The position numbers were made by a program, and so were the translations under genes. DNA of 30,319 bases, taken from positions 1 to 30,319 of the IMG/VR virus record IMGVR_UViG_3300033388_000570; one strand, written 5' to 3'. How positions within the stretch are numbered: position 1 is the stretch's first letter; every line of letters begins with the position of its first letter. The notes below the pieces were generated by a model. It searched no databases, was not told where the DNA came from, and saw only the letters and a list, made by a program, of their open reading frames with translations. This DNA comes from a virus. Below are positions 12,201-29,266 of this stretch, in pieces.

Positions 12201-15200
12201 ATGTTGCAGAGGCCAATGAGCTAATGAATCAACTTTTTAAAAGAGGTTATGTTGGTGATCCAGAAAATGTAAAAGGTTTTTTACAAACTGGAGATGTAAG
12301 ATATTTAAATGCAATGACTTTTTACAACGAACAAGGTCAAATTGATAAAAAGGTTGATAAAGTTAAGTATGATGAAATACAAAGATTACTTGATGTCTAT
12401 AGGAACAATCAAGAAAAAACTGAAGAGTCAGAACAATCTCCTAAAGAAGAAAATCAAAAGGAGGATATTACACAGGCAAAAACAGCACAAGATCAAGTTT
12501 TAGATGATGCATCTATAGATGTTATATTACCTGAAACAAATAATACAAGAATGCTAAATGAGCTTTTAAAAAGACAGTATTCTAAGTATTCTGCTACACA
12601 AACAGTTTTAGGAGAAAACGTATTGACCTTTGAAGAGTGGAGAAATGCTGAGGGTGCAATATGGCAAAACACATTTAATGCTTTAAAAAAATTATGGGCA
12701 TCTGGTAAACTACCAGTTTTAGATGCACAAGGTAATGCAGCTTACGTAAATGTAACAGAAGATCAATTACTAAATGAACTAGGTTTTGATGCATGGTTAA
12801 AGTCTAGAGAAGTAAGAGAAAATGATTTAGTAAGTGAAATTTTACAATCAGCTAATGTTTCTTTGGATGAAATAATTGCACCTACACAGAAACAAACAAC
12901 TAAAGAAGATATAACTAAAGGAAAAAATAATGTTGATATATATAAAGAAGGTGCACGTGTTAACGTTATTAAAGTTACAACTATAGATGAAAATGGAAAA
13001 CCTGTTGCATTTTTTAAACTAGTAGATCCAAAGGGTAATGATTTATCAGCAGACTTGCTTGGTTTGATAGATAGCAAATATGAAGGTACATATCCCACAT
13101 CAAAAGAAGCTGTACAAGCACAAGAAGCTTTAGAAAAACAAGCACCCGATAATGCACCTTTTAAATTTGATAATGAAGAATTAAATCAAGGAATGCTTGT
13201 TTATAGAAATGGTAAGGAGTATGTTGTAATAAGTACACCTAGATCTATTTCAGGTGGTAAGTTGCGTTTAAGAATTAATGATGGAAGTAATAAGATAACA
13301 GTTATAAATAGGGGAGAGTTTGCCGGAAGATTTACTAAACAAGAAATCAAATATGATTTTGATCCTACTAATGCAAGAGTAAATATTCAAAAAATAAATC
13401 AAATATATCCTCATGCTAATACTGTTGATGGTCAAAGAAATTATACTGAGGCTTCTAAAAGATTAGATTTGATATTACAAATCTTAGATGAAACAGATTT
13501 AAAAAATTTAAATTTAGTTATAGAAGCAGATCCGAAAGGTGGTGTAGATCAGGGTCAGTTTACTATGGAAGGTAAAAACCCAAATAAATATGTTAAAGTA
13601 AAAACATCTGCATATAGAATAGGTTTAGCAGCAGGAAGTCAAGAAACACAGAAAAGAATAAATGATGCATTGCTTAAGAATGGTATAAAACTTTCAGATA
13701 ATCCAAATGGTATTTTTGCTTATATACCAAATGATGTATTTGAAATGATAGATGCAGAAGGAAATCCTGTAGAAAATCTTAGCACAATAACTCCTGATCT
13801 TGCTAATAGTACATTGTTTGTTAGCAAAGCACTTAGAGATAGTTTAACAAAACAAGAAATATTAAATTTAGCAAGAAGTAATTTTGCTCTTAATAAGTTA
13901 ATTACTATTGAAGCAACAAATGCACTTGCTAAATCTGAAGGTGCAATAGCTTTTGTGCCTGTAGATAAATTAGATTTTAACTTTTCACTTTTAGTTTCTG
14001 GAGGTAATGTTGTTTATGATAATAGTTCAGTTAGATCTTTGTCTTCATTAAAATATCAACATGCTGATGAAAATGGCAACTATTTAATATATGATCTTAA
14101 AAAACTAAAAGGTGGTAAGGTAACAGAGAGCACTATTACTAATTTGGAAGGTAAAGAAGCTAGAGAACTAGAAGCTAAGGTTGAGGCTGGTCTTGAAGCG
14201 TCTGGACAAAATGGAATATTAGAAGCAGCTAGAGATAGATATATGGCTGCAGTTTTGTTACCTAATGGAGCATATAGATTAGTTCCTTTGAAAGCAGGTA
14301 CTATGACAGCAGAAATGCGTGCTGAGTTAGCTGTAAAACTTATTGAGCGTGCAGAGTTAACAAAAAAAGAAAATTTAGACAAGAAGGGCAAAGAAAAAAG
14401 TTTATCATACAACTATAAATATAATGATAATCTAAGTGAAGGATTGTTTATTTCTACTATACCGGGTTATAAAATATCATTACAAGTAGATCCATGGGGA
14501 AAGATACAAATGCAGCTTTATGATAAAAATCTAGGTAAGCAAGTGGGTAAAACAATTAGCGTTGAAGTTAAAGATATAGACTTGCTTAAACTTCAAGATG
14601 ATCCTTCTCAAGCTGTAACACTAATGCAAGAGTTGGTTACCAAATTTAATAGTGATGAAGATATTAAAGCAACCGAAGTAAAACTAACAAATAAAAATTT
14701 TAGAACAAGTTTTCCTGATGCAGCAACTGTTAATGATATAATTAATAAAACAACTACTAATGTAGTAGGACAAGTCATAGATACTTTTCAAGCCCAAGTA
14801 TTTTCTTCTTCGGATGTTATACAAGCAATGGTTGATTTAGAAATGACAACAGTAGCTTCTGAAAGTCAAACTGATCCTTTACTACAAGAGCAAGAAGAAA
14901 TACAAGATGTTTTGTCTTTAGAGTCTTATAGTGAAGAAGAGTTTAAAGATTTAGAAAATAATGGTTTTGAAGATATATCAAGAAAACAATTAGAAGTAAT
15001 AGTAGATAAACTCACACAACCTGTACCAGCAGCATTAACTGAAAGAGAGAAAGAAGTCTATTCTTATAGGTCTGATATGATTGATTCAATGGAAGCAATC
15101 AAAAGAGAAAAAGAAAATCTTAATCAGGATAGCTCAGACCAGCCTATTAAATCTAGCACGGATGGAAGAAGTGCTGGTGTAAAACAAATAATATCTATCT

Positions 15201-18200
15201 ATGTTGGAGGACAATTATTTTTTAATATAAATGCTTCAGGCTTTGAAATAGCAGAAGCTTTTAGTGCTAATGGGGTAACGTTACAGGAAGCTAAAGCCGC
15301 AATACCTGGTTTAGATGGAAAATTGAAAGCTTGGTTTCAAAGAGGTATTGATTATTTAGAAGGTGATATCAGTGAGCTTGAAAGTCTAAAACAAAAACTT
15401 GAAGCACTAAAATCTGAATTAGTAAAAGATATATCTCCAAAAAATAGACGTAAAGTTCTTAGAGAAAATGAAGAATATCAAAAACTTTTAAAACAAGTTA
15501 AAGATATTGAACAAAAAGGTGCTAACAAGATACTTTCACCAGAGCAGTTATCTCAATCTGATGAAACAGATATCAATGTATTTACTAAATGGGCAGAAGA
15601 AAATCTACCAAGTTATATCAATATAGCTGATATAAATACTCTTGGTAACAACATGAAAGCTGGTGGTGTACGTGTTGGTGCTTTTGTTTTAGCACTAGAT
15701 CAACTAGCATCTGGACTAAACCTACAAGGTACAATATATACATCAGCTACTAGTCCTTATAAATATCATGAAGCTTTTCATGGTGTGTTTAGAATGTTAT
15801 TAACTGATGTAGAAATTAATCAGTATATAAATATTGCTAGAAAAGAGGTGAGAGCAAAACTTAGATCTGAGGGTAAAAGTTTTGAAGCTGAACTAAAGAA
15901 ATTTAGAAATTCTGCTAATACATATACTAATATGTCAGAATCAGAATTAATAAGAGAATATTATGAAGAGTATTTAGCTGATGAGTTTGAAAAATTTAAG
16001 ACAGATCCAACTAATACTAAAACAGATTCTTCAGTTAAGTCTTTATTTACTAGAATATTGGACTGGATTAAATCTATATTTAGTGTTAAATCACAGAATG
16101 AACTTCAAACATTATTTCAAAATATTGATTCTGGTAAATTTAGAAATGCTGAAATTCAAAGAAATCAATTTACTATTTACCCGGAAAACGGGTATATATT
16201 AGAAGCAAATGCTATTATACCTTATGCATCAGAGCAAGTAGATAATAAGGTTGGGTATATTTATTTAGACAGTGATATAGCAGATCCTATGTTACGAAAC
16301 ATAAGTGCTATGTATTTATCTAGAACTTCTGAGCTTAAAGAAGCATATAATCCCGGAAAAGTTTTAGATGAGTTAATAGATGATTTTGCATGGTTATATA
16401 GTCCAGAAAATCCTATAAATGCAGAAAGAAGTGAAATGCAGTTAGATAAGCTTAGACAAATTGAAAACGCTTTTGATAATTACTCACAGGAAATAAAGGA
16501 TCAAGTTGTTAAGTTTTTAACTAGTATTAGTGATAATGTATCTGGAGAAAATCTTGACGCAGCAGAATTTGAAGACTCAAAAGAGTTAAGAAAAACAACA
16601 GAGTATGACAAAGATGCTTCTATGATAGGAGGATTTAGATCTTTAAGTTCTTCTATAAGACAGTATATTGCTACAACAACATTAGAAGAAACGGATTACT
16701 TTGGGAATGTTGAACTTACAGATGGAGAACCATTAATTATAGCTGTTGATTTTATTAATGCATACAATGGATTATTAAAAGCAGTCAAGAGTAAATCAGA
16801 TCCAAAAGCTATATTACAAAGCATGTATTTCTTTGGTCAGGATAATGCTCATGCAGGTGCTGTTGTAAGAAGAATATTAAAGGATGTTGGTATAACTGAA
16901 GAGCAGTTGCTTTCAGAAAAAACTCTTCCAAAACAAATAGCTAATCCATTATTATTTCAATCTATATTAAAAGGTTTTGAAAACTTTAGAGTAGATTATT
17001 TATTTAATGAGCGTGATGATAAGGGTAATGTTATTATATACTCTGCAGCTGAAAGAGATGATAGAAATTCTCAGTTGGATAATTGGAAACAAGCATATAT
17101 ATACAAAAGAAAACAACTTGTATCTAATAGAGATAGAAAAAGAAGATTGAATATATTATTAAAAGATATATCAGATGATATAAGAATAACTAATAAATCT
17201 ATTACAAACAAAAAGCTCAAAGAAGATGCACAAAGATATTCTCAAGAGTTATTTGATTTAGTTGGTATAAAATTGAGCCCTTTATATTTACAATTTAATA
17301 TGGTCTATAACAGATCTAAGTTAACTGTTAAACAAAAAGCATTATTAAATTTTGATAAGGATGCCAACCCATTGACTGAAGATCTTGATGGTAAGGCTTA
17401 TAAGGTTAATTCAATAGACATGCTTAATCTTTTAACTAAAGCTGATAGTGATATATTTGAGAGAGGTGATGAAGGTATGGATAGTAGGTTAAAAGCAATG
17501 GCTATTGGTAATAGCTCTTTTGATGAGACTGTTGGTGCAACTGTATTTAAAAACCCAAATGGCGATTTAGTATATGCACATCAGATGCCTACATATCACT
17601 TGAGAAAAGTTGCTGAACTTAATGATCCAAGTAAGTTAGAAGCTCTTATTACTTCTGATCCTTATTTGGCTAATAACTTTTTGTTAAACAGCAGCGCTTT
17701 TAAAAATTTATCAAAAGAACGCAAACTAAAAGTATTAAGAATTGCAGGTACTAAAATTTCTGATTTAATAAAAGCAAATCAAGAACAAGATGAAAGTTTA
17801 GGTAAGACTAAAGATAGTTCATCTTATGGTGATTATACACCACAAGAGTTTACTCTTAATCTAATTAATAATTATACAGCTTTATTAAATAATAGAAGTT
17901 ACAAGGTTACTTCTGTTGATTCATTAGATAAAAATGGTAATGAGGTATTAACAGCATTAGCTCCAGTTTTAATTAGAGTTATGGAAGCATCTAATACAGG
18001 AGATATGATAAATCTACCTGTTATTAAGACAGTTGATTTTAATGGTAAAGAATCTAAAATAACTGAAGAGGTTGTAGATATTTACATTGATCAAATAAGA
18101 TCTGAGTTTCAAAGGATTGTTAGAGAAAGCAATGAAAAAACTAAGACAAAAGAACTTATAGAAGGTTATAATACACCGGGTGGTAGAGCATTTCAGTTTT

Positions 18201-21200
18201 TTAATAGTGGTTTGTTAATTGGATCACCAGCTTTAAAAAAGCAATTGGTTGAAGCAGCAATAAATGCTGGTAAGACAAATACAAAATTAACTTTAGATGA
18301 AGCAATAGAGGGATTAGTTATACAAGTAGCTCCAACACAACAAACTAGTGAGGTAATAAATATATATGCAGGAACAAATGAAAATGCTGAGTTAAGTAAT
18401 TTTGCAAAAAGACCTTTTGCTAGTGAGCTTATAGATGGGCAGTCTAAATATGGTAATTTTATTTTTAATACTGTAGAAGGAGCTTTTCAAGCAGCAAAAC
18501 TTATAGCCGCTCCAAGTTATTTTAATGAAGAAGGATTGCGTAGAAAAATAAAGGGGTTAGATGTAAAAAGATGGGATAGTCTATCAGAAGGAATTATGAA
18601 AGGTTTAATTAAAGAATCTTTTGAACAAAACCCTAAAGCTCTTGAGAAACTATTAGCTACAGGTAATGCTACATTAACTCATACACAAGATAAGACTAAG
18701 TACCGTGAATTGTTTCCTAAAATATTAATGGAAGTAAGACAAGAGTTAGGTGGTTCTCAACCAACACAACAAGCTAGTGAGGTTGTAGGAATGACAGCTT
18801 TAAGAAAATCTGTTGTTGATAATTTAGAAAAAGAGTTTAGTGAATTTAGAAAAGAAATAAATGAACTTAATATATCTGATAAAATATCTAAGCAAATAGC
18901 AGAAGGACCAACAGTTGCAGCAGGTGTAAGTAGAAGAGAACTTACTAAATCTCAGGAACAATTAAATTTAGTTACTAATAATCCTAATCATAATTTAAAA
19001 CAAGTATTTTTTAATGATTGGATAAATACAATGGCTATAAATGAAATATTACTTGGAGATCAAGCTATTTCACTATCTAGCCCAGTAGATAAAATTAAAA
19101 GAGCTAAAATGCAAAATGCTGCTTACTTTAGTGCAGCATCTGCTATTTCCGCTCCTGAACAAGGTGTACATCATCCTGTTAAAGATATAAGTTTGGTAGC
19201 TTTAGAAGAGCCTGTTAGTCCTGACGGTATTGACTTGGCGGATGCACAAATGTATATTACCACAAAAGCATTTAGATATATGTGGTTTGGTTTTGGAAAG
19301 CTCACTGATGCACAAGCTGAATTACTTGATTTAATAGATGAGGGTCAAGAAATAACATCTTATTCTGTTTTTGGTGACAAAGAAAACACCCAGGCATACG
19401 CTAAAATGCAAGCATTATTAAATTCAAAAAAGCTTATATATGGTGATGGTAGTACATTCTTAAAAATGTCTGCATTTACTTTAACTAAAAACTTTACTTC
19501 TATTCAGAACCCAGAAACTAAAAAGTGGGAACCAAGACCTAATAGAGTACAGTTACATAACTTAAGAGAAAAGTTAGAAGCAATAGAAAATGAGAAAGGT
19601 AATCAGACACTAGGGATTGCTGCACCATTGAGTGCAATTAAAATGAAAAAGCAAAAAGTAAATGAGCTAACAGATTTAGATAATTCTAATCCATTTACTA
19701 ATGGCTATACAAATTTAGATGCTTCATTTATGGGTCTGCAGCAATTAAATGTTTCAAATAAATTGGAACAAGTTGATCCAACACAAATCAAACAAATTAT
19801 AACATCTGAACAAGATCCAAAGACACATGTTCCTGGATTAATGATGAACGTTGGAGATATAATTACAGAATATAATAAAGCAATAAGTAAGAGAGTTACA
19901 ATTAAATTCCAAAACAAAAAGAACTTAACCTTCTCTTATGAAACCGCAATGGATGAATTTGAGATGTCCAAAGATGCTGGTTCTATTACTCCAAAATTGT
20001 CTGCATATTTAAATTTTGCAATAAACGGATTACAAGCATCTCAGTCTAGTAGTCAACTATTAGAGTTCTTTTCTATGGACAATGGTGTTCAAGAGTATAA
20101 CTTAAATAATCCTATAACTTCTAAAAAGTTTGAACAATTATTTCTAAGTTATTTTAGTAAAGGTGTTTTCTCTGAAAGAATACCAGGTTTAGCATTGACT
20201 TTAGTATCTGATTTTGGTAATCAAGTATATAGAAGAGTATACGAAGTTGAGATAGTAGATGGAAAAACTATACCGGTAAGATCTGAGATTATAAGAGAAA
20301 AAAGTTGGAAAGGAAATAGTAATGATATACAAGACTTAAATACCTTAACTCCAGAATCTGAAGGTTTGTCTGAAGGTATTGTAGTTTTAGATAGACTTAG
20401 ACACGGTCTTAAAGAATATAAAGATATTACTGATCCAGATTCATATACAGGACAAAGATTTACAGAGATGATGATGCCAAGTCATCATAAATCTGTGATG
20501 GATATGATAGAAAATAAACCTAATGCAAAAATGCCTGATGTAATATCTAAAATGTTTGCTATTAGAATACCTTCACAGGATAATCATTCAGCAATGAATG
20601 TAAAGTGGGTTGATTTTTTACCTGTTTATTATGGATCATCAGCTATGTTTGCAAGAGAGTTGGTAGAGATATCAGGTGCTGATTTTGATATTGATAAAGT
20701 ATTTGCACAAATAAAAGATTTTTACGTTGAGTCAGGTGAGTTTAAAGAATATGGAAGAGCCGTTGGCATGGCTGAAAAGCATAAAGACTATCTTAGATAT
20801 ATTACTAGAGAAGTACAAAAGCCTGGTAATACATATTATGAAGCATATCAAACTTATATTAGAAATCAAAATGCAAGTGAAATAGATAATAGTGTTGAGA
20901 CAGATGTTTTAACTGATCAGGGTTTAATTTCACAAGAAGGATTAATAGCATTAGAAATGTTAGGTTTGCCTAAAACTTTAGAAGAATATAATAATTACTA
21001 TAAGAAATTTCAAGGAGAACCATATGAAGCGCCTTATAATAATGACATACTAGATTATAGATATGCTTTATTAGGTAATGATAATGTAACATCTGGTGAT
21101 AATCCTATATCATATACCCCAGCTACAGTAAATATAATCAAAGATGTTTTATCAGAACTATCGGGACAGTCTAAAGTATTCAAGGATAGAATGGAAGAAG

Positions 21201-23485
21201 ACAGTGTAGAAGTTGATAATATATTAGGAAAAATAAAAGCTTTCAAAGCAAATAAGGGAGCATCAATTGGTGCTGTAGTATTACCTAACTTATATTTAAG
21301 TTTATTAACTGAGTATGGTATTACCTTAAAAAATCCCATACGAATAAATGGTAAAGATTACTTTGACTATAAAGAAACATTAGATGACAATGGTAATAGA
21401 AAACAAGATACAATATCTGCTTTGATTACTATGGCAACAGATAATGCAAAAGATAGGTTGTTATCTAAACTAGGACTTAATAGACACTCATTGGGTATTG
21501 TTGCTAATTTAACAGCTTTAGGTATAAATCTAAAAACATCAACTCTTTTAGTCAATCACCCTACTATACAAAAATTATATAATGAAGCTCTAAATAAATC
21601 AGAGAAAACTGATCCAGGAATTAAAAAGTTGGTGCAAGATTTTATAGAGTCTACTACAGACGTCAATGAGTTATTAGAAGTTACTGATGAGTTATTATTA
21701 GATAATATAAATCAACCACAAAATATTTCTAAACAAGATAATCTTAGTGTATTATCAGTATTTTTTGAGGCAATAAAATTAAAAGACTTTACTGGAAAAA
21801 TGGGTGCAGCTACTAGCTTAACAAAAGGTATTGGTAGAAACATGGCAGAAGTAAAAGAAAAATATAAAAAGATTGCTGAGCTTACAGATAAAGATGCTCC
21901 AATGGATCTAAATGCAATTTATAAAAGCAATACTTGGTACAGTCAATATAACAGAATGTTTAATCAACTTGTAGAACAACTGCTTCCTGCTGTAGTTCTA
22001 AGATCAAATGCATCTTTTACTAGTATATTAGATCGTGCATTAGAAACTATGAATACAGAAAGCAGACAGTTTACATCTGAAGTAGAAGAAGACGTATCAT
22101 TAGATTTACTTTCATATTTGACAATAAAAGCATACCAAAAAAATATGCTAGATAATGGAACACTTGATCAAAAAAGTTTTAGCAATGATTTAATATATCC
22201 TTCTGAATATAATATTACTGATGTTATAGCTGATCTTAAAGAAATACAATCTTCATTGGGTCAAGAAAATTTATTTTTAGATGATTATGTAATACCTGAA
22301 AAATCTAGTGATGTAGGAAATTCAACAGGTCTTAATTTAGCAAATGCAAATACTTTTAGAAATTTAAGTAAACAACAAAAAATAGATCTTCAAAATGATT
22401 TTTCTAAATTATTTGGATCATTAACAACAAGGGGTGCTGCTAAAACACTAATTAACTATATGATGGTGAAAGATGGATTCCAACTTAGATATGGTTCATT
22501 GTTGTCATCTATTAGTCCTTTTGTTTTAAATGATTATTTATCTACTATTAATTCTGTTGAGTCAGCGCTCAAAGGTGCATCTACTTTTGAATCTGTTTTT
22601 GGGATGAGTCAAGATAACTTAGCTGAAGAGTTTAGAGATAATTATCTAAGGTCTAATATAAGTGGTAGACTTCTTAAAACTTATAATCAAAGTCCTATTA
22701 CTAGAGGGTTTGGTAATAAAAAAGAAAAAATAATTTTTAATAGACAAGAGGGTATATTAAAGATGAATAATGTAACCATGCAGGTTCCAAAAATGTTTAT
22801 AAGAGTTCAAACTATAGAAGGTGCAACCATAACTTTAATGCTTGATAGAGAAGCAACAAAAGATAAAAAACTAGTATATAATGTTATTGAAACATATGGT
22901 TCTAATAGTCAAACTGGTATAGGTTTTATTTTTGGTGATAGACCCACCCATAGAGAAGTAAGAAATTATGTTAGAAATAAAGGTAATGATGTAAATCAAG
23001 ATCCTGATGCAAGCATAAGCTTTGATGCTATGGATGGTGCAAAAGCTGTACAAGCTGAGATATTACAATCAGAAAATATTAATATTACTGCTGATGAAAA
23101 TTCTATCATGGTTAAGTTAGATCCAGAAGCACAAGAAACTGATATAGCAAACACAAACTTACTACTTGAACAGCTTGGTTTAAATGAGGTAGCTAAAGAC
23201 CAAGATGAGTTAGAAGCAAATGTTATTGAAGATGTTGATACTTCTTTACCTGATGTTGACGAAGGAGAAGCACAATTAAGTCTCAATTTTGAACAAGAGT
23301 TGGATGAACAATATCCTGAAATAACTGAGTTTTGGGATACAGTAATATCACCAGATAAAAAAGCTTTAGAAAATTTAAGAGCAAATAATATTGTATCTTT
23401 GGAAGACTTGATTGAAGAATATAATAGAGGAACTTACGCTAGCATAGCAGAGTTTATAGATCAAATAAAAAATTGTAACTTATAA
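9257..23485 (+). CDS. Giant cargo protein: membrane-type N-terminus, zincin, DFDID virion RNA polymerase with inserted NADAR domain
   Basis: 4742 residues with no interruption; ATG 7 nt after the previous stop. In order: (a) residues 1-~700, with hydrophobic stretches at ~235-262, ~428-447 and ~573-595 that could enter a membrane; (b) ~700-2100, charged helical and beta regions without recognised domains; (c) ~2120-2250, a zincin-like metallopeptidase with HEAFH at 2171-2175 and a Glu helix, REYYEEYLADE, ~60 residues on; (d) ~2350-4742, a crAss-type RNA polymerase with APLSAIK (K3462), GLQQLN (3493-3498), AIRIPSQD (3768-3775) and the metal-binding DFDID at 3809-3813; (e) a NADAR domain at ~3035-3165, inserted in the polymerase between direct repeats. 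In phi14:2 the homologous polymerase (gp66, about 2180 residues) is packaged in the virion and injected to transcribe early genes. Here it appears fused to about 2300 extra N-terminal residues. The C-terminal ~100 residues before the tail are strongly acidic. Polymerase assignment is secure; the cargo role is inferred. Confidence 0.9.
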   Translation: MEDQSNKPLANTIANNQRTSSVIPPGEFNFIPIEEMFETPETDLANVIATDPGAIAQVDRYKADIDKYGIPAMASLGTVSPSLATGKYNPVAQQNPSQAAYQEVKNILTAKKDGPGGQRVAPRYASIRQSNFLRYYEHPEFADLGFTPYANMEEFYNANSTIWDDMSRMSGQFASLAGSGFNSVYRSYGDMFGDGSYLSQPDLESAFEFEDAMAIGNSSRGGALGFTNNLLLNSAYTFGIIGSIAVEELILAGAAAAQGFLNPASDALLASRSVANVKRAGDAISGLFDMKKMADATRNAMKTLSEIDTARDFWAATQGTRKVLGQAFTPNTMYALKNFKSTKNATQNAVNLAKMKAGFGGFYRDFRAVNLALAESKLEGGMVYNELIREGVNMAQAKSGVTVTPEEFASIQSKASEGAFYTTMANAPIIYASNWFVLGNAMGGFNRSLGRVFGETFEKGLNGRLFKGKGVKDAATGKVKNVFKDAGTGLGGWWTKVRAGGVKGNTGRALAASARYFAANIAEGIQEVAQEAVSAGTKGYYTALLDDPLAGGVALRNQYIASGMSSQFSGQGAETFLSGFLMGGIVQGPQKLFFQGIPALYQRISDPKAYKEYQEIKDKYVKDLVTVHNEAWNAQADDPGSVFDPQKLNFFFQKQAAAEMKKNVFNQDRFGFQDEKDGAKFHQMYTIFRTGTSELFKNQLRDYLKMTDAELAQAFPSSKADVKSGKIRSRLEKFITQIDKAEADYIRRKDDNKNPFDPSQFNKETEKRQYIQEVLKSQAWEHANYLYMFTENGFQRALERANSIYTELANDPLFDGMAASDVTVLLDPDSISNELFLLSKDILVLDDSTEQGKKDKKRLEGKLERLKEIQKVLSDKNLLNNDGTFDKRKLGSKLLPVFEKYIKYLANSKNTFADKSKIKEALKKMIDYGALKGRARVYDKAIEYLANPERFNEIVNRQIEVNKNIYRSLSSNFEKQIKKYLNVAEANELMNQLFKRGYVGDPENVKGFLQTGDVRYLNAMTFYNEQGQIDKKVDKVKYDEIQRLLDVYRNNQEKTEESEQSPKEENQKEDITQAKTAQDQVLDDASIDVILPETNNTRMLNELLKRQYSKYSATQTVLGENVLTFEEWRNAEGAIWQNTFNALKKLWASGKLPVLDAQGNAAYVNVTEDQLLNELGFDAWLKSREVRENDLVSEILQSANVSLDEIIAPTQKQTTKEDITKGKNNVDIYKEGARVNVIKVTTIDENGKPVAFFKLVDPKGNDLSADLLGLIDSKYEGTYPTSKEAVQAQEALEKQAPDNAPFKFDNEELNQGMLVYRNGKEYVVISTPRSISGGKLRLRINDGSNKITVINRGEFAGRFTKQEIKYDFDPTNARVNIQKINQIYPHANTVDGQRNYTEASKRLDLILQILDETDLKNLNLVIEADPKGGVDQGQFTMEGKNPNKYVKVKTSAYRIGLAAGSQETQKRINDALLKNGIKLSDNPNGIFAYIPNDVFEMIDAEGNPVENLSTITPDLANSTLFVSKALRDSLTKQEILNLARSNFALNKLITIEATNALAKSEGAIAFVPVDKLDFNFSLLVSGGNVVYDNSSVRSLSSLKYQHADENGNYLIYDLKKLKGGKVTESTITNLEGKEARELEAKVEAGLEASGQNGILEAARDRYMAAVLLPNGAYRLVPLKAGTMTAEMRAELAVKLIERAELTKKENLDKKGKEKSLSYNYKYNDNLSEGLFISTIPGYKISLQVDPWGKIQMQLYDKNLGKQVGKTISVEVKDIDLLKLQDDPSQAVTLMQELVTKFNSDEDIKATEVKLTNKNFRTSFPDAATVNDIINKTTTNVVGQVIDTFQAQVFSSSDVIQAMVDLEMTTVASESQTDPLLQEQEEIQDVLSLESYSEEEFKDLENNGFEDISRKQLEVIVDKLTQPVPAALTEREKEVYSYRSDMIDSMEAIKREKENLNQDSSDQPIKSSTDGRSAGVKQIISIYVGGQLFFNINASGFEIAEAFSANGVTLQEAKAAIPGLDGKLKAWFQRGIDYLEGDISELESLKQKLEALKSELVKDISPKNRRKVLRENEEYQKLLKQVKDIEQKGANKILSPEQLSQSDETDINVFTKWAEENLPSYINIADINTLGNNMKAGGVRVGAFVLALDQLASGLNLQGTIYTSATSPYKYHEAFHGVFRMLLTDVEINQYINIARKEVRAKLRSEGKSFEAELKKFRNSANTYTNMSESELIREYYEEYLADEFEKFKTDPTNTKTDSSVKSLFTRILDWIKSIFSVKSQNELQTLFQNIDSGKFRNAEIQRNQFTIYPENGYILEANAIIPYASEQVDNKVGYIYLDSDIADPMLRNISAMYLSRTSELKEAYNPGKVLDELIDDFAWLYSPENPINAERSEMQLDKLRQIENAFDNYSQEIKDQVVKFLTSISDNVSGENLDAAEFEDSKELRKTTEYDKDASMIGGFRSLSSSIRQYIATTTLEETDYFGNVELTDGEPLIIAVDFINAYNGLLKAVKSKSDPKAILQSMYFFGQDNAHAGAVVRRILKDVGITEEQLLSEKTLPKQIANPLLFQSILKGFENFRVDYLFNERDDKGNVIIYSAAERDDRNSQLDNWKQAYIYKRKQLVSNRDRKRRLNILLKDISDDIRITNKSITNKKLKEDAQRYSQELFDLVGIKLSPLYLQFNMVYNRSKLTVKQKALLNFDKDANPLTEDLDGKAYKVNSIDMLNLLTKADSDIFERGDEGMDSRLKAMAIGNSSFDETVGATVFKNPNGDLVYAHQMPTYHLRKVAELNDPSKLEALITSDPYLANNFLLNSSAFKNLSKERKLKVLRIAGTKISDLIKANQEQDESLGKTKDSSSYGDYTPQEFTLNLINNYTALLNNRSYKVTSVDSLDKNGNEVLTALAPVLIRVMEASNTGDMINLPVIKTVDFNGKESKITEEVVDIYIDQIRSEFQRIVRESNEKTKTKELIEGYNTPGGRAFQFFNSGLLIGSPALKKQLVEAAINAGKTNTKLTLDEAIEGLVIQVAPTQQTSEVINIYAGTNENAELSNFAKRPFASELIDGQSKYGNFIFNTVEGAFQAAKLIAAPSYFNEEGLRRKIKGLDVKRWDSLSEGIMKGLIKESFEQNPKALEKLLATGNATLTHTQDKTKYRELFPKILMEVRQELGGSQPTQQASEVVGMTALRKSVVDNLEKEFSEFRKEINELNISDKISKQIAEGPTVAAGVSRRELTKSQEQLNLVTNNPNHNLKQVFFNDWINTMAINEILLGDQAISLSSPVDKIKRAKMQNAAYFSAASAISAPEQGVHHPVKDISLVALEEPVSPDGIDLADAQMYITTKAFRYMWFGFGKLTDAQAELLDLIDEGQEITSYSVFGDKENTQAYAKMQALLNSKKLIYGDGSTFLKMSAFTLTKNFTSIQNPETKKWEPRPNRVQLHNLREKLEAIENEKGNQTLGIAAPLSAIKMKKQKVNELTDLDNSNPFTNGYTNLDASFMGLQQLNVSNKLEQVDPTQIKQIITSEQDPKTHVPGLMMNVGDIITEYNKAISKRVTIKFQNKKNLTFSYETAMDEFEMSKDAGSITPKLSAYLNFAINGLQASQSSSQLLEFFSMDNGVQEYNLNNPITSKKFEQLFLSYFSKGVFSERIPGLALTLVSDFGNQVYRRVYEVEIVDGKTIPVRSEIIREKSWKGNSNDIQDLNTLTPESEGLSEGIVVLDRLRHGLKEYKDITDPDSYTGQRFTEMMMPSHHKSVMDMIENKPNAKMPDVISKMFAIRIPSQDNHSAMNVKWVDFLPVYYGSSAMFARELVEISGADFDIDKVFAQIKDFYVESGEFKEYGRAVGMAEKHKDYLRYITREVQKPGNTYYEAYQTYIRNQNASEIDNSVETDVLTDQGLISQEGLIALEMLGLPKTLEEYNNYYKKFQGEPYEAPYNNDILDYRYALLGNDNVTSGDNPISYTPATVNIIKDVLSELSGQSKVFKDRMEEDSVEVDNILGKIKAFKANKGASIGAVVLPNLYLSLLTEYGITLKNPIRINGKDYFDYKETLDDNGNRKQDTISALITMATDNAKDRLLSKLGLNRHSLGIVANLTALGINLKTSTLLVNHPTIQKLYNEALNKSEKTDPGIKKLVQDFIESTTDVNELLEVTDELLLDNINQPQNISKQDNLSVLSVFFEAIKLKDFTGKMGAATSLTKGIGRNMAEVKEKYKKIAELTDKDAPMDLNAIYKSNTWYSQYNRMFNQLVEQLLPAVVLRSNASFTSILDRALETMNTESRQFTSEVEEDVSLDLLSYLTIKAYQKNMLDNGTLDQKSFSNDLIYPSEYNITDVIADLKEIQSSLGQENLFLDDYVIPEKSSDVGNSTGLNLANANTFRNLSKQQKIDLQNDFSKLFGSLTTRGAAKTLINYMMVKDGFQLRYGSLLSSISPFVLNDYLSTINSVESALKGASTFESVFGMSQDNLAEEFRDNYLRSNISGRLLKTYNQSPITRGFGNKKEKIIFNRQEGILKMNNVTMQVPKMFIRVQTIEGATITLMLDREATKDKKLVYNVIETYGSNSQTGIGFIFGDRPTHREVRNYVRNKGNDVNQDPDASISFDAMDGAKAVQAEILQSENINITADENSIMVKLDPEAQETDIANTNLLLEQLGLNEVAKDQDELEANVIEDVDTSLPDVDEGEAQLSLNFEQELDEQYPEITEFWDTVISPDKKALENLRANNIVSLEDLIEEYNRGTYASIAEFIDQIKNCNL
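15614..16006 (+). other. Zincin-like metallopeptidase domain (within the giant protein)
   Basis: This covers residues ~2120-2250 of the giant protein. KYHEAFHGVF contains a full HExxH zinc site (H2171, E2172, H2175). About 60 residues later, ELIREYYEEYLADEF (2230-2244) provides a Glu-rich helix suitable for the third zinc ligand (E2237/E2238). The domain sits immediately before the RNA polymerase part. It could cut the polyprotein, other cargo proteins or a host target; the sequence does not say which. Confidence 0.72.
18332..18354 (+). repeat. 23-bp direct repeat, left copy, at NADAR insertion boundary
   Basis: This copy encodes PTQQTSEV (residues 3026-3033) in phase 0. It matches 18761-18783 at 22 of 23 positions; the one difference (A here, G there) changes Thr to Ala. 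It lies just upstream of the NADAR domain. Confidence 0.9.
18359..18751 (+). other. NADAR (YbiA/DUF1768) domain inserted in the RNA polymerase
   Basis: This covers residues ~3035-3165 of the giant protein. Family hallmarks in order are: IYAGTNENAELSNFAKRPF (the LSNF block, 3046-3049), YGNFIFNTVEGAFQAAKL (conserved Glu E3074 with Q3078 and K3081), then a Trp (KRWDSL), IMKGLIKESFEQNP, LLATGNATL, and the closing LMEVRQELGG. NADAR proteins are N-glycosidases of the NAD/ADP-ribose world. Characterised members remove ADP-ribose from guanine in nucleic acids, and phage members have been described as counter-defence against DarT. The block is bracketed by the direct repeats at 18332-18354 and 18761-18783. 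All conserved landmarks are present, so it is probably active. Confidence 0.82.
18761..18783 (+). repeat. 23-bp direct repeat, right copy, at NADAR insertion boundary
   Basis: This copy encodes PTQQASEV (residues 3169-3176), in the same phase as the left copy at 18332-18354. The start-to-start distance is 429 nt, exactly 143 codons, so loss or exchange between copies keeps the polymerase frame. Confidence 0.9.
18980..20725 (+). other. RNA polymerase catalytic core (two-barrel, DFDID)
   Basis: This covers residues ~3242-3823, limits approximate. VFFNDWINTMAINEILLGDQA with DKIKRAKM leads into a first-barrel-like segment with APLSAIKMKK (K3462) and GLQQLNVSNK. RIPSQD (3770-3775) and FLPVYYGSS then precede SGADFDIDK (DFDID at 3809-3813). 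The three Asp residues correspond to the Mg-binding DxDxD of multisubunit, YonO-type and crAss-type RNA polymerases. Assignment of the first barrel is by motif order and is less certain than the DFDID loop. Confidence 0.85.
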
Positions 23486-23488
23486 GAT

Positions 23489-26400
23489 ATGGCACGTTGT
23501 CCTAATAAAAATACAGCAGAGTATAAAGCTCTTAAAGAAGTTTTTAAAACAGAAATTATTACAAACAATGTAATTAATAACTGGCAAGATCTTAATAATG
23601 TAGATACATTTCCTAGTGTTATACAAGCACAAGATATGTTAAGGAACCAAAGACTTGCAATGAACTTAAAAAAAAGACAATTTGGTGAATCTTTATTAAA
23701 TAATTTAAGAAGAGAAAGAATAGGTCACAGCTACAAAAACAAATTTTATATTAATAATTCTAATCCTAATACAGGTTTATTTGATGAGTTATTTTTAAGT
23801 AAAAACATTAAGAGGCTTAATAGATATCTTGATGTTAATAATATTCCTTCAAATAGAATTACATTAGAAAGAACAGCTAAAACATATAGATTAACTGTTA
23901 ATGATGATTTGTTTACAACAAATGATATGCTTGAGTCTTCTAGATCTTGGGATACACCAAGAGCAAGAAGTATTGTAAAACATCTTAGAAGAATGTTTCC
24001 TCAAGTAAATATAGAGATGCTTTCTGTTGCAGAAGCAAAAGAGATGTATAAGTCAATGCCTGAATGGAAAAAGTCAAACACCCCTTTTGATAAAGTTAAT
24101 TCTTTTTATGTTGATGGAGTTGCTTATTTAATTAAAGGAAGAGTAACAGATGAAATTGCTATTGAAGAAATGTTACATCCATTTGTTGATGCTATAAAAG
24201 CAGATAATGAAGATTTGTTTAACTCATTACTTAAAGAAGCAAATAGTAATTTCCCAGAGATGGTACAAGAAATTGCTGATTCATATAATTTAGATAGAAG
24301 GTTTAGTCAACTTGATAGAGATTTAGAGATTGTTACTCAAGCTTTATCAAGACATTTTAATAATCAATATGAAAAAGAAGGTGGACCAAGCCGAGGATTT
24401 TTAAATAAAATAAAAGAGGTCATTCAATGGTTTGCAAATATCATTAAAAATTTTAATGAGTATTTAACAGGAAGACCATTAGACGTATCATCCATTAATG
24501 ATACAGCAACATTAACTGATATTGCAAAACTTTTAAACACAGAAGGTATACAATTTAAACTTGAGTCACGAGTTAATGGCAAGATTAGATATAGTTTATC
24601 TCCTGAAAAAAAGAAAGCGCTTGACATACAGCGTAATTCTGCAAATGAAATTCAGAAGCAAGTATTAAATAAACTGTTTAATGTTGTAGAGTCAAGCAAA
24701 GAAGAGTTTGATTCATTATCAGCAAATCTAAATGATACTAGTAATCCTAGCATTGTTATTTTAAATGAAAAGGATCATACATATTATAATATTACTACAG
24801 GAGAAGTTTACACTTCCGTGACTACTGCTATTAAAGGGAGATTGAAAAATCAAGAAGATGTTCAACTTAATTTGGATGTTGGTAATGATGTAGATGCAAT
24901 TCTTGATTCAGTTATTGCTGGTGAATCTCCTGCAGAAGTACAATCAAAACTCAGTATTTTGACACCAGAAATGGCTGAGCAAGTATATGCACAGTTAGAA
25001 ACTACATTAGATATGATTATGCCTGAAGGTTCTATAGCATTATCACAGGTTGTTTTATTTGATGAGAACACTAGTTTAGCAGGAACAGCAGACTTACTTA
25101 TTATTGATAGAAATGGTTTTATTAGAATTGTTGATTTAAAAACTAGTAAGAACTCAATTAAATCTAGATATGTAACTGATAAAATTACTGGTAGAAGTGA
25201 ATTTAAAAAGTATGATAAGAGTTGGGATATTGTACCATCAGATCAAGATGTCATAAAAGATTTACAAGACAATAACGTTAAAAAAGAAAACGGTAAAAAA
25301 TATTCTAAAGAACAAATTGAAAATAGAAAGAAAGAGTTATCTCCTTTATTGTATGAAAAAGCAGGTGTAGAAAAACTATCTACTAGAGAACAACACAACC
25401 TTCAAGTAAATTTATATAGAAGGATGGTTGAGAATATGGGCTATAAAGTCTTTCAAGGAGAAGGGGCTTCCACCACTATTCATTTTGTTGCTGATATAAC
25501 AGGAAAAGGTAAAGATCAAAAATTTAATGGTAATATTAAACCTGACGGTAGAATAGATCATCCGCCTTCAGAAAATTTAATTTATGTAAATAAACTAATA
25601 CCTGAAAACTTAGATAACATTGAAAAGGATAAACTTGAAAGTGCAGTTAAAAATGCTGAAGATCAAATACTAGATGCAGAACAATTAGCTGTAGACTCTG
25701 AGCAAGAAGCAGATACCGTTGATGCACAACAGTATCCAGAGTACAATACTATTTTAGCAGCACTTGAAAACTATAGATTAGGTTTAGTTGATAGAAGAAA
25801 AGCACTAGATCAAGTTAAAAAAAGTATTTACAGTGATAGAACAAAAAAAGAGCAACGTGAGCAAATTGCAAGTCATCTAGCATATATTGGTATTGCAATA
25901 AGTGAAGGACCTATAGCACAATCAAAAGCATATTCTTCTTTATTACGTGATGCATTAAAGGAAATTAGAAAGTTTTCTGCATATGTACAAGATCCTTCAA
26001 ACTTTGGTAAGACAGAGTACATAACATATGTCTTAAATTTTGATAGGTTTGCAAAAACATTTGTTGGATTATACTCTATTGAGCAGTCTAATGAATTAAA
26101 TGCAACTCAACGTTCTTTAGTTTTATCTTTACAGTTAGAACTTAATAAGCTAACTGGTGGTGACAAAAAAGGAGAAGGTATAATTAATCAAGCAATTTCT
26201 GATTATGTAAAAGAAACTATCCGAACAAGATCTAGTAATGAATTTGGAGTAGATGGTAGTGCATTTACTAAAGAAGATCTTGATATGGTTATGGAAATGG
26301 CAAGAGATATAAACGGTACAGAGCTACAAACTAGAGATTTAGATACTTCACCGGATGTTCTTTTAGGAGTTATGGCAAAAATATACAAGGCCAAAAAACA

Positions 26401-29266
26401 AGAACTATTGGACAGAGTTGCTGAAACTAAAGCAAGAGTTACAGTAGCTGCAGAAAAACTATTAAAACTTTCACCAACAAACGATAAAGAAAAGATTTAT
26501 GACTTTATGCATGAGTCAGATGGTAGATATGTAAAACCAATAGGTCAACAGTACTATGATCTTGAAGAATCTTTGGGTGCTGTATTAACAGATAATGATG
26601 GCCAGCCATATTATTACAGAGACATATCAAATTTAGATAATGCATCACAAGAAGATATAGACTATAATATAGATTTAGCAAATAAAAAAAGAGCATACTC
26701 TGATTTTATGGCGGGTGAAATGAAAAATAGTGCTAATGAACTTGTAGATGGTGAATACCATAGATATACTGATGAATTTAAACAGGCTAGAAATAAGTTT
26801 GAATATTGGTCACCTGGTTCTGATAAAAGCCGTAGAGGCAGATGGAATAGAAAAGCTGGTAATAGTGATAAAGACTATGCTTTATATGAAGCTAAGTATT
26901 ATGATATGAAACCTGTTACTTTTGCAGAAAGGAATGCCCTAGGTGATGCCACAGGAGTTATAGTTAAAGATCAGATTTTCAGAGCAGTTAAGCCTGAATT
27001 TAGAGAGGTCCGACTTACTACAAGAAGTGGTCAGGACATGGCAAGTGCTAAATACAGATCTATCATGAACCCTACAAATGCATTAGAACAAGCACAAAAA
27101 GAGTTTTATGAAATGTATATAGATGTTTATGAAAACTACCTATTAAAGAAATTACCTGTAGGTGAATTAACTAAGATGGTTGGTAAAACACCACTAGTTA
27201 AAAATAATTTAATAGATGATTTAAAAAATAAACCTACTATAGTATCTAAGTTATATGCAAAAACAATTGGTAGTAGTGCATGGAACATGTTCAAGAAAAC
27301 ATCATCTCAGAGAGGTGTTGTAACAGATGAAAATGGAAACTTAATTAGTTCATTGCCTATATACTATACGGGAAGACCAAGAATAGATGGAGAAATAGAA
27401 GTTGTAGATAAGCAGATAACAGCACTACAAGATAAAAAAAGAAAGGGTTTAATTGGTCCAGATGCATATGAAAAGGAAATAGCCATATTAAATGGTAAGA
27501 TGGAAAGACTAAGATCACAACCTAGTACGGGTCAAATAAGCAGAGATTTAGGAAGTAGCTTATTAAAGTTTGCTGCAATGGCTGAAAACTATGAAGTGAT
27601 GGGCACAATTGAAGATACTCTTAATGCATTTTTAAATGTTATTGAGAGAAGAGAATATCAACCAGCTGATACAAGTATTGAAACAGGAACATTTATAGAC
27701 AATGCATTTAAGAAAAGAGGTATTATAAAAGGTAAAGATTCTAATGTATTAAAAAGAGCTAAGAAATGGATGTCTATGATATACTATCAAGATGATATGA
27801 TGACAAAAGGTGCTGCTGATAAAATAGCAGATGGTCTTATTCAGTTGTCTTCTTTATCTTATGTTGCTTTTAACCCATTTGGTAACTTCAATAACTATGT
27901 TATAGGTAGAATTAATAACAATATTGAAATGCTAGGTGGTAGATTTTATAGCAGAAAAGCATATCAAAGAGCTACTTATGAATTTAATAAACGTGCTATA
28001 CCAGATATAGTTCAAAGAACATCATATGTTGTAGGAGACCTTGGTGATGTTTTGACTTTGGGATTAGTACCTGGTTTACAAAAGTCTACTTATGATCCAC
28101 AGAAACCTAATAGTAAGTATGAAGCATTTGTAGATTTATTTAGAATGATGGATAGTATGTCTGATATACGTGAACAATCCTCATCTACATCAGAAGGTAA
28201 AAGTTGGTTTGAAAAAGCTACTGAATGGGGATATGTATTACAAGATGCAGCAGAATATAATGTACAAACAAAAGTTGGTATGGCTTTACTAATGGATACA
28301 TTTATAAAGAATACAGAAACTAATGAGGTTATGTCTTTATATGATGCATTTGATTATGATGCAAATACACATAAAAATGTATTGAAAGATGGCTTTACTA
28401 TGATTGTAGATAAGAATGGTAATAACTTGCGTGAATACTCTGATGAATTTAGATATGAACTTAGAAATCAAATACGTGAGGTCAACAAACAAATTCATGG
28501 TAACTATGCAAAAGAAGATAGAGTTGTAATGCAAAGTACTACTATTGGTAAGTTAGCATTTCAGTTTCATAAGTGGGTGGCTCCAGCTATAAGAGCAAGA
28601 TATCAAAGAGAATACTTTGACCAAAACCTTGGTTGGATGGAAGGCCGTTATATATCTGCTTGGAAGTTTTTAGCATATACAAAAGAACAAATAGTAAAAG
28701 GAAACATGGAGTTTTCTAAGTATAATAAAGGTTTTTTAGAGTCATACGGTTACACAGGCAAAGGTGGTAATATAGATCAAAGAGCAACTAATAAACTTTT
28801 TGGGTTTTATAGAACAATGGGTGAAATAGGAATTATATTATCTACTCTTGTTTTAAGTGAAATATTAGGATCTTTACTTGCAGGTGAAGATGATGATAGT
28901 GATACAATGAAGAGATTTAAAAATGTTGCAAGATATCAAGCTGATAGATCTTTTAAAGAACTTATAATGTTCTTACCAGTACCAGGAGGATTTGAACAAC
29001 AATATCAAATGTTTAAATCACCAATTGCTGCAACAAGAACTTTAGGTGAATTAGGTGAAGCACTTTCTCTCACAATAAGAACTCCTATGGCATATTTGTA
29101 TTATTCTGATGATGAGTTCAGATCAAATTCAAGTTTTGTTTACCAACAAAAACCAAGAAAAGGAGAACTTAAAGTTTATAAAAACTGGAAAGATGTGTTA
29201 CCTATTATTTATTCTATACAAAAATGGGATGCATATCTGAAATTGAATAATTTCTATATCAAATAA
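23489..29266 (+). CDS. Large cargo protein with degenerate zincin, PD-(D/E)XK nuclease and C-terminal hydrophobic segment
   Basis: 1925 residues; ATG 3 nt after the stop of the RNA polymerase gene, so clearly the same operon. Residues ~205-295 look like a zincin relative whose HExxH has become EEMLH (226-230), followed by LEIVTQALSRHF (279-290) where the third-ligand helix is expected; catalysis is doubtful. Residues ~425-650 look like a RecB/Cas4-type PD-(D/E)XK nuclease: DHTYY (429-433), AGTADLL with D535, IVDLKTSK with D549 and K551, and QVNLY (Q639, Y643). A charged, Glu/Ala-rich helical stretch follows (~690-740). The remaining ~1100 residues are helical and unrecognised, including AFQFHKWVAPAIRARYQREY near 1690. 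A hydrophobic segment at ~1780-1799 (IGIILSTLVLSEILGSLLAG) could span a membrane and is followed by an acidic EDDDSD. It is likely ejected with the polymerase, with the nuclease acting on DNA in the host; these roles are inferred. Confidence 0.8.
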   Translation: MARCPNKNTAEYKALKEVFKTEIITNNVINNWQDLNNVDTFPSVIQAQDMLRNQRLAMNLKKRQFGESLLNNLRRERIGHSYKNKFYINNSNPNTGLFDELFLSKNIKRLNRYLDVNNIPSNRITLERTAKTYRLTVNDDLFTTNDMLESSRSWDTPRARSIVKHLRRMFPQVNIEMLSVAEAKEMYKSMPEWKKSNTPFDKVNSFYVDGVAYLIKGRVTDEIAIEEMLHPFVDAIKADNEDLFNSLLKEANSNFPEMVQEIADSYNLDRRFSQLDRDLEIVTQALSRHFNNQYEKEGGPSRGFLNKIKEVIQWFANIIKNFNEYLTGRPLDVSSINDTATLTDIAKLLNTEGIQFKLESRVNGKIRYSLSPEKKKALDIQRNSANEIQKQVLNKLFNVVESSKEEFDSLSANLNDTSNPSIVILNEKDHTYYNITTGEVYTSVTTAIKGRLKNQEDVQLNLDVGNDVDAILDSVIAGESPAEVQSKLSILTPEMAEQVYAQLETTLDMIMPEGSIALSQVVLFDENTSLAGTADLLIIDRNGFIRIVDLKTSKNSIKSRYVTDKITGRSEFKKYDKSWDIVPSDQDVIKDLQDNNVKKENGKKYSKEQIENRKKELSPLLYEKAGVEKLSTREQHNLQVNLYRRMVENMGYKVFQGEGASTTIHFVADITGKGKDQKFNGNIKPDGRIDHPPSENLIYVNKLIPENLDNIEKDKLESAVKNAEDQILDAEQLAVDSEQEADTVDAQQYPEYNTILAALENYRLGLVDRRKALDQVKKSIYSDRTKKEQREQIASHLAYIGIAISEGPIAQSKAYSSLLRDALKEIRKFSAYVQDPSNFGKTEYITYVLNFDRFAKTFVGLYSIEQSNELNATQRSLVLSLQLELNKLTGGDKKGEGIINQAISDYVKETIRTRSSNEFGVDGSAFTKEDLDMVMEMARDINGTELQTRDLDTSPDVLLGVMAKIYKAKKQELLDRVAETKARVTVAAEKLLKLSPTNDKEKIYDFMHESDGRYVKPIGQQYYDLEESLGAVLTDNDGQPYYYRDISNLDNASQEDIDYNIDLANKKRAYSDFMAGEMKNSANELVDGEYHRYTDEFKQARNKFEYWSPGSDKSRRGRWNRKAGNSDKDYALYEAKYYDMKPVTFAERNALGDATGVIVKDQIFRAVKPEFREVRLTTRSGQDMASAKYRSIMNPTNALEQAQKEFYEMYIDVYENYLLKKLPVGELTKMVGKTPLVKNNLIDDLKNKPTIVSKLYAKTIGSSAWNMFKKTSSQRGVVTDENGNLISSLPIYYTGRPRIDGEIEVVDKQITALQDKKRKGLIGPDAYEKEIAILNGKMERLRSQPSTGQISRDLGSSLLKFAAMAENYEVMGTIEDTLNAFLNVIERREYQPADTSIETGTFIDNAFKKRGIIKGKDSNVLKRAKKWMSMIYYQDDMMTKGAADKIADGLIQLSSLSYVAFNPFGNFNNYVIGRINNNIEMLGGRFYSRKAYQRATYEFNKRAIPDIVQRTSYVVGDLGDVLTLGLVPGLQKSTYDPQKPNSKYEAFVDLFRMMDSMSDIREQSSSTSEGKSWFEKATEWGYVLQDAAEYNVQTKVGMALLMDTFIKNTETNEVMSLYDAFDYDANTHKNVLKDGFTMIVDKNGNNLREYSDEFRYELRNQIREVNKQIHGNYAKEDRVVMQSTTIGKLAFQFHKWVAPAIRARYQREYFDQNLGWMEGRYISAWKFLAYTKEQIVKGNMEFSKYNKGFLESYGYTGKGGNIDQRATNKLFGFYRTMGEIGIILSTLVLSEILGSLLAGEDDDSDTMKRFKNVARYQADRSFKELIMFLPVPGGFEQQYQMFKSPIAATRTLGELGEALSLTIRTPMAYLYYSDDEFRSNSSFVYQQKPRKGELKVYKNWKDVLPIIYSIQKWDAYLKLNNFYIK
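24101..24373 (+). other. Degenerate zincin-like segment
   Basis: This covers residues ~205-295 of the 1925-residue protein. EEMLHPFVDAI keeps the second His (H230) and the Glu of HExxH, but the first His is Glu (E226). LEIVTQALSRHF follows about 50 residues later, matching the usual third-ligand helix. It is probably a non-catalytic or structurally repurposed relative of the HEAFH domain in the preceding gene. Confidence 0.5.
24761..25438 (+). other. PD-(D/E)XK nuclease domain
   Basis: This covers residues ~425-650 of the 1925-residue protein, limits approximate. The order HTYY, SVTTAIKG, AGTADLL (D535), RIVDLKTSK (D549, K551) and LQVNLYRRM (Q639xxxY643) follows the RecB-like exonuclease pattern, with all expected catalytic residues visible. 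A stretch of about 70 charged residues separates the DLK strand from the QxxxY helix. Confidence 0.72.

Follow-up and report, generated by a model that had tools for sequence, protein, structure and literature searches.

NADAR domains hydrolyse guanine-ADP-ribose on DNA and RNA (PMC11125620, PMC11833690). In the NADAR of E. coli C7, residues E88, K95 and D171 matter, and the residue at the third catalytic position differs between types: YbiA types have Glu there, BC4488 types have Asp, and phage NADARs have His (PMC11543638). Among crAss-like phages, mass spectrometry detected gp47, gp49 and gp50 in virions of crAss001 (PMC10172136), and g065, g066 and g067 of phi14:2 are virion proteins according to their annotation, which for g066 comes from tandem mass spectrometry proteomics. 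A further comparison is offered by the polyvalent proteins (Iyer 2017, PMC5512222), multidomain chains that are thought to be injected with early effectors and that include a podovirus virion RNA polymerase (vRNAP) with an ADP-ribosyltransferase (ART) domain; NADAR, DUF1768 and YbiA are absent from the main text of that paper. Here, we analysed the entire IMG/VR virus record IMGVR_UViG_3300033388_000570 (30,319 bases, hereafter the window), in which a giant open reading frame (ORF) encodes a crAss-like vRNAP chain with a NADAR domain inserted in it (Table 1). Phage NADARs are described as typically stand-alone (Iyer 2022, PMC9503650), whereas that of the window is fused to a polymerase, and we propose that it may be an exchangeable cassette that counters a host defence.

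A sequence-only reading of the window had recognised the NADAR motif series, including E3074, in this chain, and every motif was found where that reading had placed it: LSNF at amino acid (aa) 3046, NTVEGAFQAAK at 3071-3081, LLATGNATL at 3132 and LMEVRQEL at 3157. The excised domain scored above the Pfam cut-off for NADAR PF08719 (E = 8.5e-11, 42.8 bits, cut-off 35.1) and reached 49.8 bits with phrog_1017; when the 4742-aa ORF was scanned as a whole, PF08719 gave 32 bits, under the cut-off. The nearest solved structure by sequence was YbiA 2b3w (E = 2.7e-4), followed by two ribosomal chains (E = 0.26 and 0.62). An AlphaFold2 model of the excised domain, computed with 66 sequences, had a mean predicted local distance difference test score (pLDDT) of 82.5 and a predicted template modelling score (pTM) of 0.77. 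The model superposed on 8bau, a NADAR with ADP-ribose, with a Z score of 13.6 and a root-mean-square deviation of 2.6 over 127 residues, and on 2b3w and the NADAR 8bat with Z scores of 11.5 and 7.3, respectively; Foldseek returned 2b3w (E = 2.9e-4) and 8bau (E = 1.2e-3). The profile and structure comparisons, which the sequence-only reading had proposed for aa 3020-3180, thus upheld its assignment of family and fold.

Residues E3074, K3081 and H3142 were invariant in 66/66 aligned NADARs (alignment A3, comprising the window and IMG/VR loci, with partial domains, phage-collection loci and L100 left out), and W3106 was conserved in 60/66. E3074 and K3081 correspond to E88 and K95 of C7, and H3142, judged by eye, appears to be the equivalent of D171; His at this third position makes the window NADAR one of the phage type. 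The identity of E, K and H throughout the alignment suggested that catalysis is under selection. In comparison with phage NADARs of the T4 gp30.3 type and YbiA, the likeness lies in the fold and in the E, K and His residues. DarT1-associated NADAR antitoxins share the family and the E88/K95 equivalents but have Asp at the third position (PMC11543638), where the window has His. Moreover, unlike a DarT1-NADAR toxin-antitoxin system, the window, which also has three reverse ORFs of 100-111 aa, showed no DarT match in the six long forward ORFs scanned with Pfam.

The virion-type polymerase identity of the chain was confirmed using a profile of 47 DFDxD segments with the window as first member. Its best match was the DNA-dependent RNA polymerase 6vr4_A (E = 3.7e-48), in an alignment that covers the DFDID region, and the next match had E = 0.036. 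Only this profile succeeded: searches of the PDB with a single polymerase sequence and with the 18-member profile A2 returned no RNA polymerase, and the Pfam and PHROGs scans left the polymerase part of the ORF unnamed. DFDID was located at aa 3809, in agreement with the earlier placement of the polymerase motifs about 640 residues past the domain. In addition, crAss001 gp50 matched the window-family polymerase profile at its DFDxD region (59.7 bits), and aa 3173-4742 matched 35 phage records (E = 7e-7 to 4e-6), 27 of which are Bacteroides phages, such as crAss001, and most of which are annotated as putative RNA polymerase. A second hhalign comparison showed aa 3183-4418 to be colinear with residues 796-1966 of phi14:2 gp66 (E = 5.8e-30), and the gp66-like block starts about 15 residues after the NADAR end. 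The part before the NADAR matched gp66 only weakly (best probability 6.5%, E = 0.0057), and we therefore do not claim a placement of the NADAR between the polymerase's two halves. Relative to phi14:2 gp66 (6vr4) and crAss001 gp50, the window chain is alike in its DFDxD and RIPxQ context, its colinearity with gp66 and its gp49-homologue neighbour, but is 4742 aa long, as against 2180 and 2412 aa, and bears the NADAR.

The recurrence of the fusion was evaluated in IMG/VR viral contigs using two NADAR scans (the second retaining 80 of 82 confirmed matches, at 78 loci) and one polymerase scan. All ORFs of the loci were read with the hidden Markov model (HMM) of A1, and 72 distinct NADARs were retained after repeats and the fragments of a broken copy in record L010 had been dropped. 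Fifty-eight of the 72 share an ORF with DFDxD, with the NADAR C-terminal of the motif in 50 and N-terminal of it in eight. The remaining 14 lie in ORFs whose available part has no DFDxD; contig ends truncate three of these ORFs (L011, L068 and L075), and in L014 the next ORF carries DFDVD. Because the scan patterns favour this subclade, these counts allow no inference on NADARs in general. Of the NADAR ORFs counted, the two smallest (344 and 387 aa) are truncated by contig ends, and the next has 1369 aa; L110 has its NADAR in a complete 733-aa ORF, and its longer twin L111 was the copy counted. The window-family polymerase profile matched 15 of 102 NADAR ORFs at E 1e-3, so that the assignment of the other ORFs as polymerases rests on DFDxD and on the 47-member profile, which was built partly from them.

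Among named crAss genomes, NADAR and DFDxD share a single ORF in cr126_1, cr130_1 and cr272_1, and crAss001 gp50 aligned with cr126_1 only downstream of the N-terminal NADAR of the latter. In cr131_1, the NADAR lies in gp48, which matches the cr130_1 chain from DFDID onward, and gp50 matches the part before. The cr126_1 chain is labelled DUF1768 domain-containing in its record; thus, the domain is visible in the database, though not as a polymerase fusion. The sequence-only reading knew of no description of such a fusion, and no published crAss NADAR-polymerase fusion was found among the literature matches listed. The main text of Yutin 2021 (PMC7886860), taken apart from the domain drawings of its Fig. 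3, contains no NADAR, DUF1768 or ADP-ribos.

Two of these genomes showed further peculiarities. The cr131_1 chain (L002, NC_055902.1 gp50-gp49-gp48) is split at the site of the cr130_1 DFDID, with a 242-aa ORF in between, as if an intron or an intein-type element had broken up the catalytic motif. The cr130_1 gp79 (L005, NC_055901.1 13777-31182) is annotated as DprA-like, yet its chain carries DFDID and NADAR.

Comparison with polymerase relatives indicated that the NADAR is the filling of an exchangeable slot of the polymerase in the window. Twenty-four relatives were scanned; since L024 is the L010 contig, 23 were compared, some of them cut by contig ends, and no NADAR was found in the sequence examined from these 23. 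All 23 were colinear with the window: fourteen (L026, L027, L029, L030, L032-L038, L043, L046 and L047) had no insert of NADAR size, and nine (L025, L028, L031, L039-L042, L044 and L045) had other sequence at the NADAR place. ART-PolyVal, as in polyvalent proteins, occupies the slot in L044 (33.6 bits, cut-off 31.2), DprA-like phrog_768 (E = 8e-44) with phrog_2072 that in L045, phrog_2072 that in L042, and phrog_4182 (E = 1.4e-6) that in L031, where Pfam AAA_18 stayed under its cut-off; the inserts of L025, L028, L039, L040 and L041 had no convincing family match. The sequence-only reading was thus right in seeing a NADAR within the polymerase, but missed that it is one of several inserts found at this place in relatives and that a stretch present in a near-twin is absent from the window copy.

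The tails of 48 chains with a C-terminal NADAR were also scanned for families. Besides NADAR itself (47 tails), matches were obtained to GP30.3 (14), cpYpsA SLOG (10), the 2OG-Fe(II) oxygenase PF13532, which we take to be AlkB-like (8), AAA_30 together with a PIF1-like helicase (4) and ART-PolyVal (2). Oxygenase, NADAR and helicase matches stand in a row in L067. More generally, L067:8951-12562 and L073:4989-8591 each hold oxygenase and NADAR matches plus helicase or, below the cut-off, ART-like matches in one polymerase tail. These relatives have several effector domains per chain, as polyvalent proteins do; in the window chain, NADAR is the only Pfam family below E 0.01. The window differs from polyvalent proteins in its crAss-type polymerase and in the proposed exchange at a conserved seam. 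A reading in which the inserts, the NADAR among them, play no catalytic part and serve as structural spacers or are carried as neutral passengers is very improbable. The wide variation of the inserts among close relatives, 14 of 23 of which have none, would suit such a reading, but the invariance of E, K and H and the enzyme families matched by some inserts argue against it.

The window copy of the NADAR may be incomplete, misassembled or defective. Record L010 (IMGVR_UViG_3300033143_001281) is 99.97-99.99% identical to the window over 20 kb, and the window lacks, in frame, 69 bp of the NADAR domain that are present in L010. Conversely, L010 lacks 34 bp that include the E3074 and K3081 codons, and its frame is shifted; a different piece of one domain is thus gone from each of two near-identical records (L010:10147-10247 and window 18475-18540). 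The K3081-to-W3106 spacing of 26 residues in the window was the shortest of 66, with three divergent members at 27-28 and a median of 43. Residues 61-80 of the model showed low pLDDT, and the stretch ahead of the R79 equivalent, in the region of the ADP-ribose pocket, is short in the window. An exact 36-mer from the window domain had no match in any other viral contig. The two gaps may be either assembly faults or real deletions. The different gaps in two such similar records and the shortest spacing could indicate that the NADAR is being lost or is inactive in this phage population. We consider this doubtful, since faulty assembly of a slot that varies within the population could explain both gaps, the gap of the window keeps the frame and spares E, K, W and H, spacings almost as short occur in the three divergent members, and the gapped model still superposes on 8bau.

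The NADARs of L008 and L009 are 90% identical and their polymerase segments 24% identical, with the NADAR on opposite sides of DFDxD; for the window and L008, the corresponding values are 75% and 18%. Over 40 loci (780 pairs), NADAR identity and polymerase-segment identity gave a Pearson correlation of 0.18 and a Spearman correlation of 0.10. These comparisons indicated that NADARs have moved between polymerases. In a tree of 78 polymerase segments, the N-terminal label needed 7 changes, not fewer than in shuffles (mean 6.8), and many branches were weak; the tree was therefore used only to place L024, the near-copy of the window, which sits among relatives without a NADAR.

The window NADAR is flanked by two copies of a QQTSEV-type linker, hereafter the seam; with up to 3 mismatches allowed, the window yielded no further copy, and 100 shuffles gave none. 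Eight close relatives, window included, were compared at the slot: the four filled slots had direct linker repeats (23 nt in the window, 28 in L025, 16 in L028 and 20 in L031), and the four empty slots, which form two near-identical pairs (L026/L027 and L029/L030), had a single linker copy and no repeat. A scan for ACAACAARYTAGTGRGGTT yielded 54 copies in 50 stretches, some of which come from one contig and one of which, L169 (258-aa ORF), is an apparent chance match. The reading frame was alike in 54/54 copies, within the longest ORF, and 27 of the 50 ORFs matched polymerase profiles in the part examined. The seam flanks fell into 31 left types and 28 right types in 36 combinations; five left types occurred with two right types each, and four right types were each paired with between two and four left types. 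Away from the close relatives, the linker joins modules that have been reshuffled. In the loci from protein searches, linker Ser was encoded by AGT in 14/16 cases (background 27%, binomial 7e-7) and Glu by GAG in 8/9 (background 24%, 8e-5), a test in which related sequences share descent, so that draws are not independent, and whose counts include L039 and L047 (2 of 16), apparently unrelated to linkers. This codon bias suggested shared DNA descent, and we infer exchange by recombination at the seam. The common frame of all copies, and the presence of a HEAFH zincin-like motif within the same chain, would also be explained if the linker were mainly a protein feature, either a flexible linker or a protease site freeing the inserts, with its DNA likeness due to codon bias; the departure of the Ser and Glu codons from the background makes this rather unlikely, with the same caveat on independence.

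In the 34 of 38 prepared seam neighbourhoods that were scanned for families, Pfam matched DUF7831 (2), FtsK_gamma (1), AAA_18 (1) and Lipase_chap (1), and PHROGs matched phrog_2072 (3), phrog_4182 (2), phrog_2206 (2) and eight families once each. A general rule that direct repeats always flank NADAR was rejected: the 70 domains had a median score of 9.0 and most were ordinary, flank similarity being above ordinary only in a few (L104, the window, L011, L019, L093 and L078). In L160, a NADAR-like stretch follows the seam near aa 3461, and the ORF matches the NADAR HMM. The chains of L029 (at aa 1949) and L178 contain the seam a second time, some 1250 residues further upstream and close to another difference in length.

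Table 1. Positions of the NADAR insertion, its seams and the surrounding polymerase features in the window
Feature	Positions	Strand	Basis
Giant ORF, 4742 aa, crAss-like vRNAP chain with NADAR inserted	9257..23485	+	crAss001 gp50, 59.7 bits; 47-segment profile against 6vr4
Left linker (seam), encodes PTQQTSEV	18332..18354	+	22/23 nt identical to right copy
NADAR domain, aa 3035-3165	18359..18751	+	Pfam profile, AlphaFold2 model, structural matches
E3074 codon (E88 of E. coli C7 NADAR, E43 of P. nicotianae NADAR)	18476..18478	+	66/66 in A3; residue role in PMC11543638
K3081 codon (K95 of C7, K50 of P. nicotianae)	18497..18499	+	66/66 in A3; PMC11543638
Junction, 69 bp of L010 missing from window	18539..18540		Comparison with L010; shortest K-to-W spacing; low pLDDT nearby
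H3142 codon, putative third catalytic position	18680..18682	+	66/66 in A3; match to E125/D171 judged by eye
Right linker (seam), encodes PTQQASEV	18761..18783	+	Copies start 429 nt (143 codons) apart
aa 3181-4419, colinear with phi14:2 gp66 794-1967	18797..22513	+	hhalign, E = 8.4e-29
RIPSQ motif upstream of DFDID; profile column aligns to RIPNQ of 6vr4	20564..20578	+	Profile alignment
DFDID, polymerase catalytic aspartate motif, aa 3809	20681..20695	+	47-member profile aligned to 6vr4
Next ORF, 1925 aa, homologue of crAss001 gp49 (putative RNA polymerase subunit)	23489..29266	+	E = 6e-21 to crAss001

With regard to function, we favour, with moderate confidence, nucleic-acid repair or counter-defence at entry. 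Specifically, we assign a probability of roughly 0.55 to the reading that the NADAR is a cassette for injected counter-defence against guanine ADP-ribosylation. By analogy with its homologues, the polymerase chain is probably injected into the host, having been packaged as they are. The NADAR would then act during entry, removing ADP-ribose from guanine in the incoming template or early transcripts; the trigger would be a host DarT1-like or other guanine ADP-ribosyltransferase, and phages would follow changes in host defences by replacing the payload through recombination at the seam. The oxygenase in 8/48 and the AAA_30 and PIF1-like helicase matches in 4/48 NADAR tails fit nucleic-acid repair. 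As a stand-in for hosts, we took the phylum of the metagenome-assembled genome, titled Bacteroidetes, that holds L124; of 296 genomes sampled from this phylum, 28 contain DarT (PF14487).

Several points weigh against this reading. T4 gp30.3, a NADAR of the His type, cleared guanine-ADP-ribose in vitro and did not rescue cells from DarT1 (PMC11125620), so that an anti-DarT role is not implied by the family. The metagenome-assembled genome is a stand-in only, holding a related contig. The fusion is uncommon in named phages: tblastn with one intact NADAR found four crAss genomes, as against 132 records that match one DFDxD segment; two 'uncultured' records are not listed here. The window gap precedes the R79 equivalent, in a region where K75 and G78 of the P. 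nicotianae NADAR lie close to the ADP-ribose (PMC11543638). An AlphaFold2 model of the polymerase with the NADAR (aa 2860-4040, 18 of 22 prepared sequences) reached a pLDDT of only 49.8 and a pTM of 0.30, and we therefore make no claim on the place of the NADAR in space. Finally, 10/48 NADAR-bearing tails also matched the SLOG family, which Iyer 2022 (PMC9503650) links to soluble ADP-ribose derivatives. As for the sequence-only reading, its mention of a phage NADAR described as an anti-DarT factor found no backing, as 'AdfN' occurs in none of the literature matches listed; ICP1 AdfB, an anti-DarT protein, is described as a functional antitoxin that likely works via direct interactions (PMC11481870).

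The SLOG matches bear on the alternative that the target of the NADAR is a soluble signal derived from ADP-ribose, such as the cyclic ADP-ribose variants made by TIR-type defence, which the domain would destroy, with the polymerase as delivery vehicle only. Soluble targets have been argued for most phage NADAR, Macro and SLOG domains (Iyer 2022, PMC9503650), and DprA-like phrog_768 with phrog_2072 lies in the same slot of L045. On the other hand, tested NADARs act on guanine adducts, the parts of PMC11125620 and PMC11833690 drawn on here report no soluble substrate, and a nucleic-acid target is suggested by the oxygenase and helicase matches in some NADAR-bearing tails. We regard the soluble-signal alternative as rather unlikely and retain guanine repair at entry as the preferred reading. 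A broader proposal, which we offer tentatively and at somewhat under even odds, is that crAss-like vRNAPs are cartridge holders in which recombination at a conserved seam of about 20 nt swaps NADAR, ADP-ribosyltransferase, DprA/SLOG-like and unknown cassettes in frame. A phage would thereby alter the counter-defence payload that enters with its polymerase ahead of phage gene expression, and the NADAR would clear ADP-ribose from the template or the first transcripts.

Other features of the chain and its surroundings were also recorded. The HEAFH zincin-like motif lies at aa 2171 of the giant ORF (window 15767-15781), with a similar HExxH in the cr130_1 and cr131_1 chains. An exonuclease-like stretch is found in the next ORF (aa 424-652, window 24758-25444; phrog_298, E = 2.1e-9, with the PD-(D/E)XK Pfam match under the cut-off), and the window ORF at 5971-9246 had no match among phage records. 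A putative structural protein of Flavobacterium phage FpV4 (L128, KT876724.1) contains a DFDxD region of the crAss type, and this phage is a possible laboratory model.

If the preferred reading is true, a polymerase that brings along a domain for base repair or counter-defence would be active ahead of phage transcription, as the earliest possible answer to host defence, and this would bear on why phages package a polymerase this large. Moreover, the shared seam would make the payload searchable, the content between seams being candidate, mostly unnamed, anti-defence domains.

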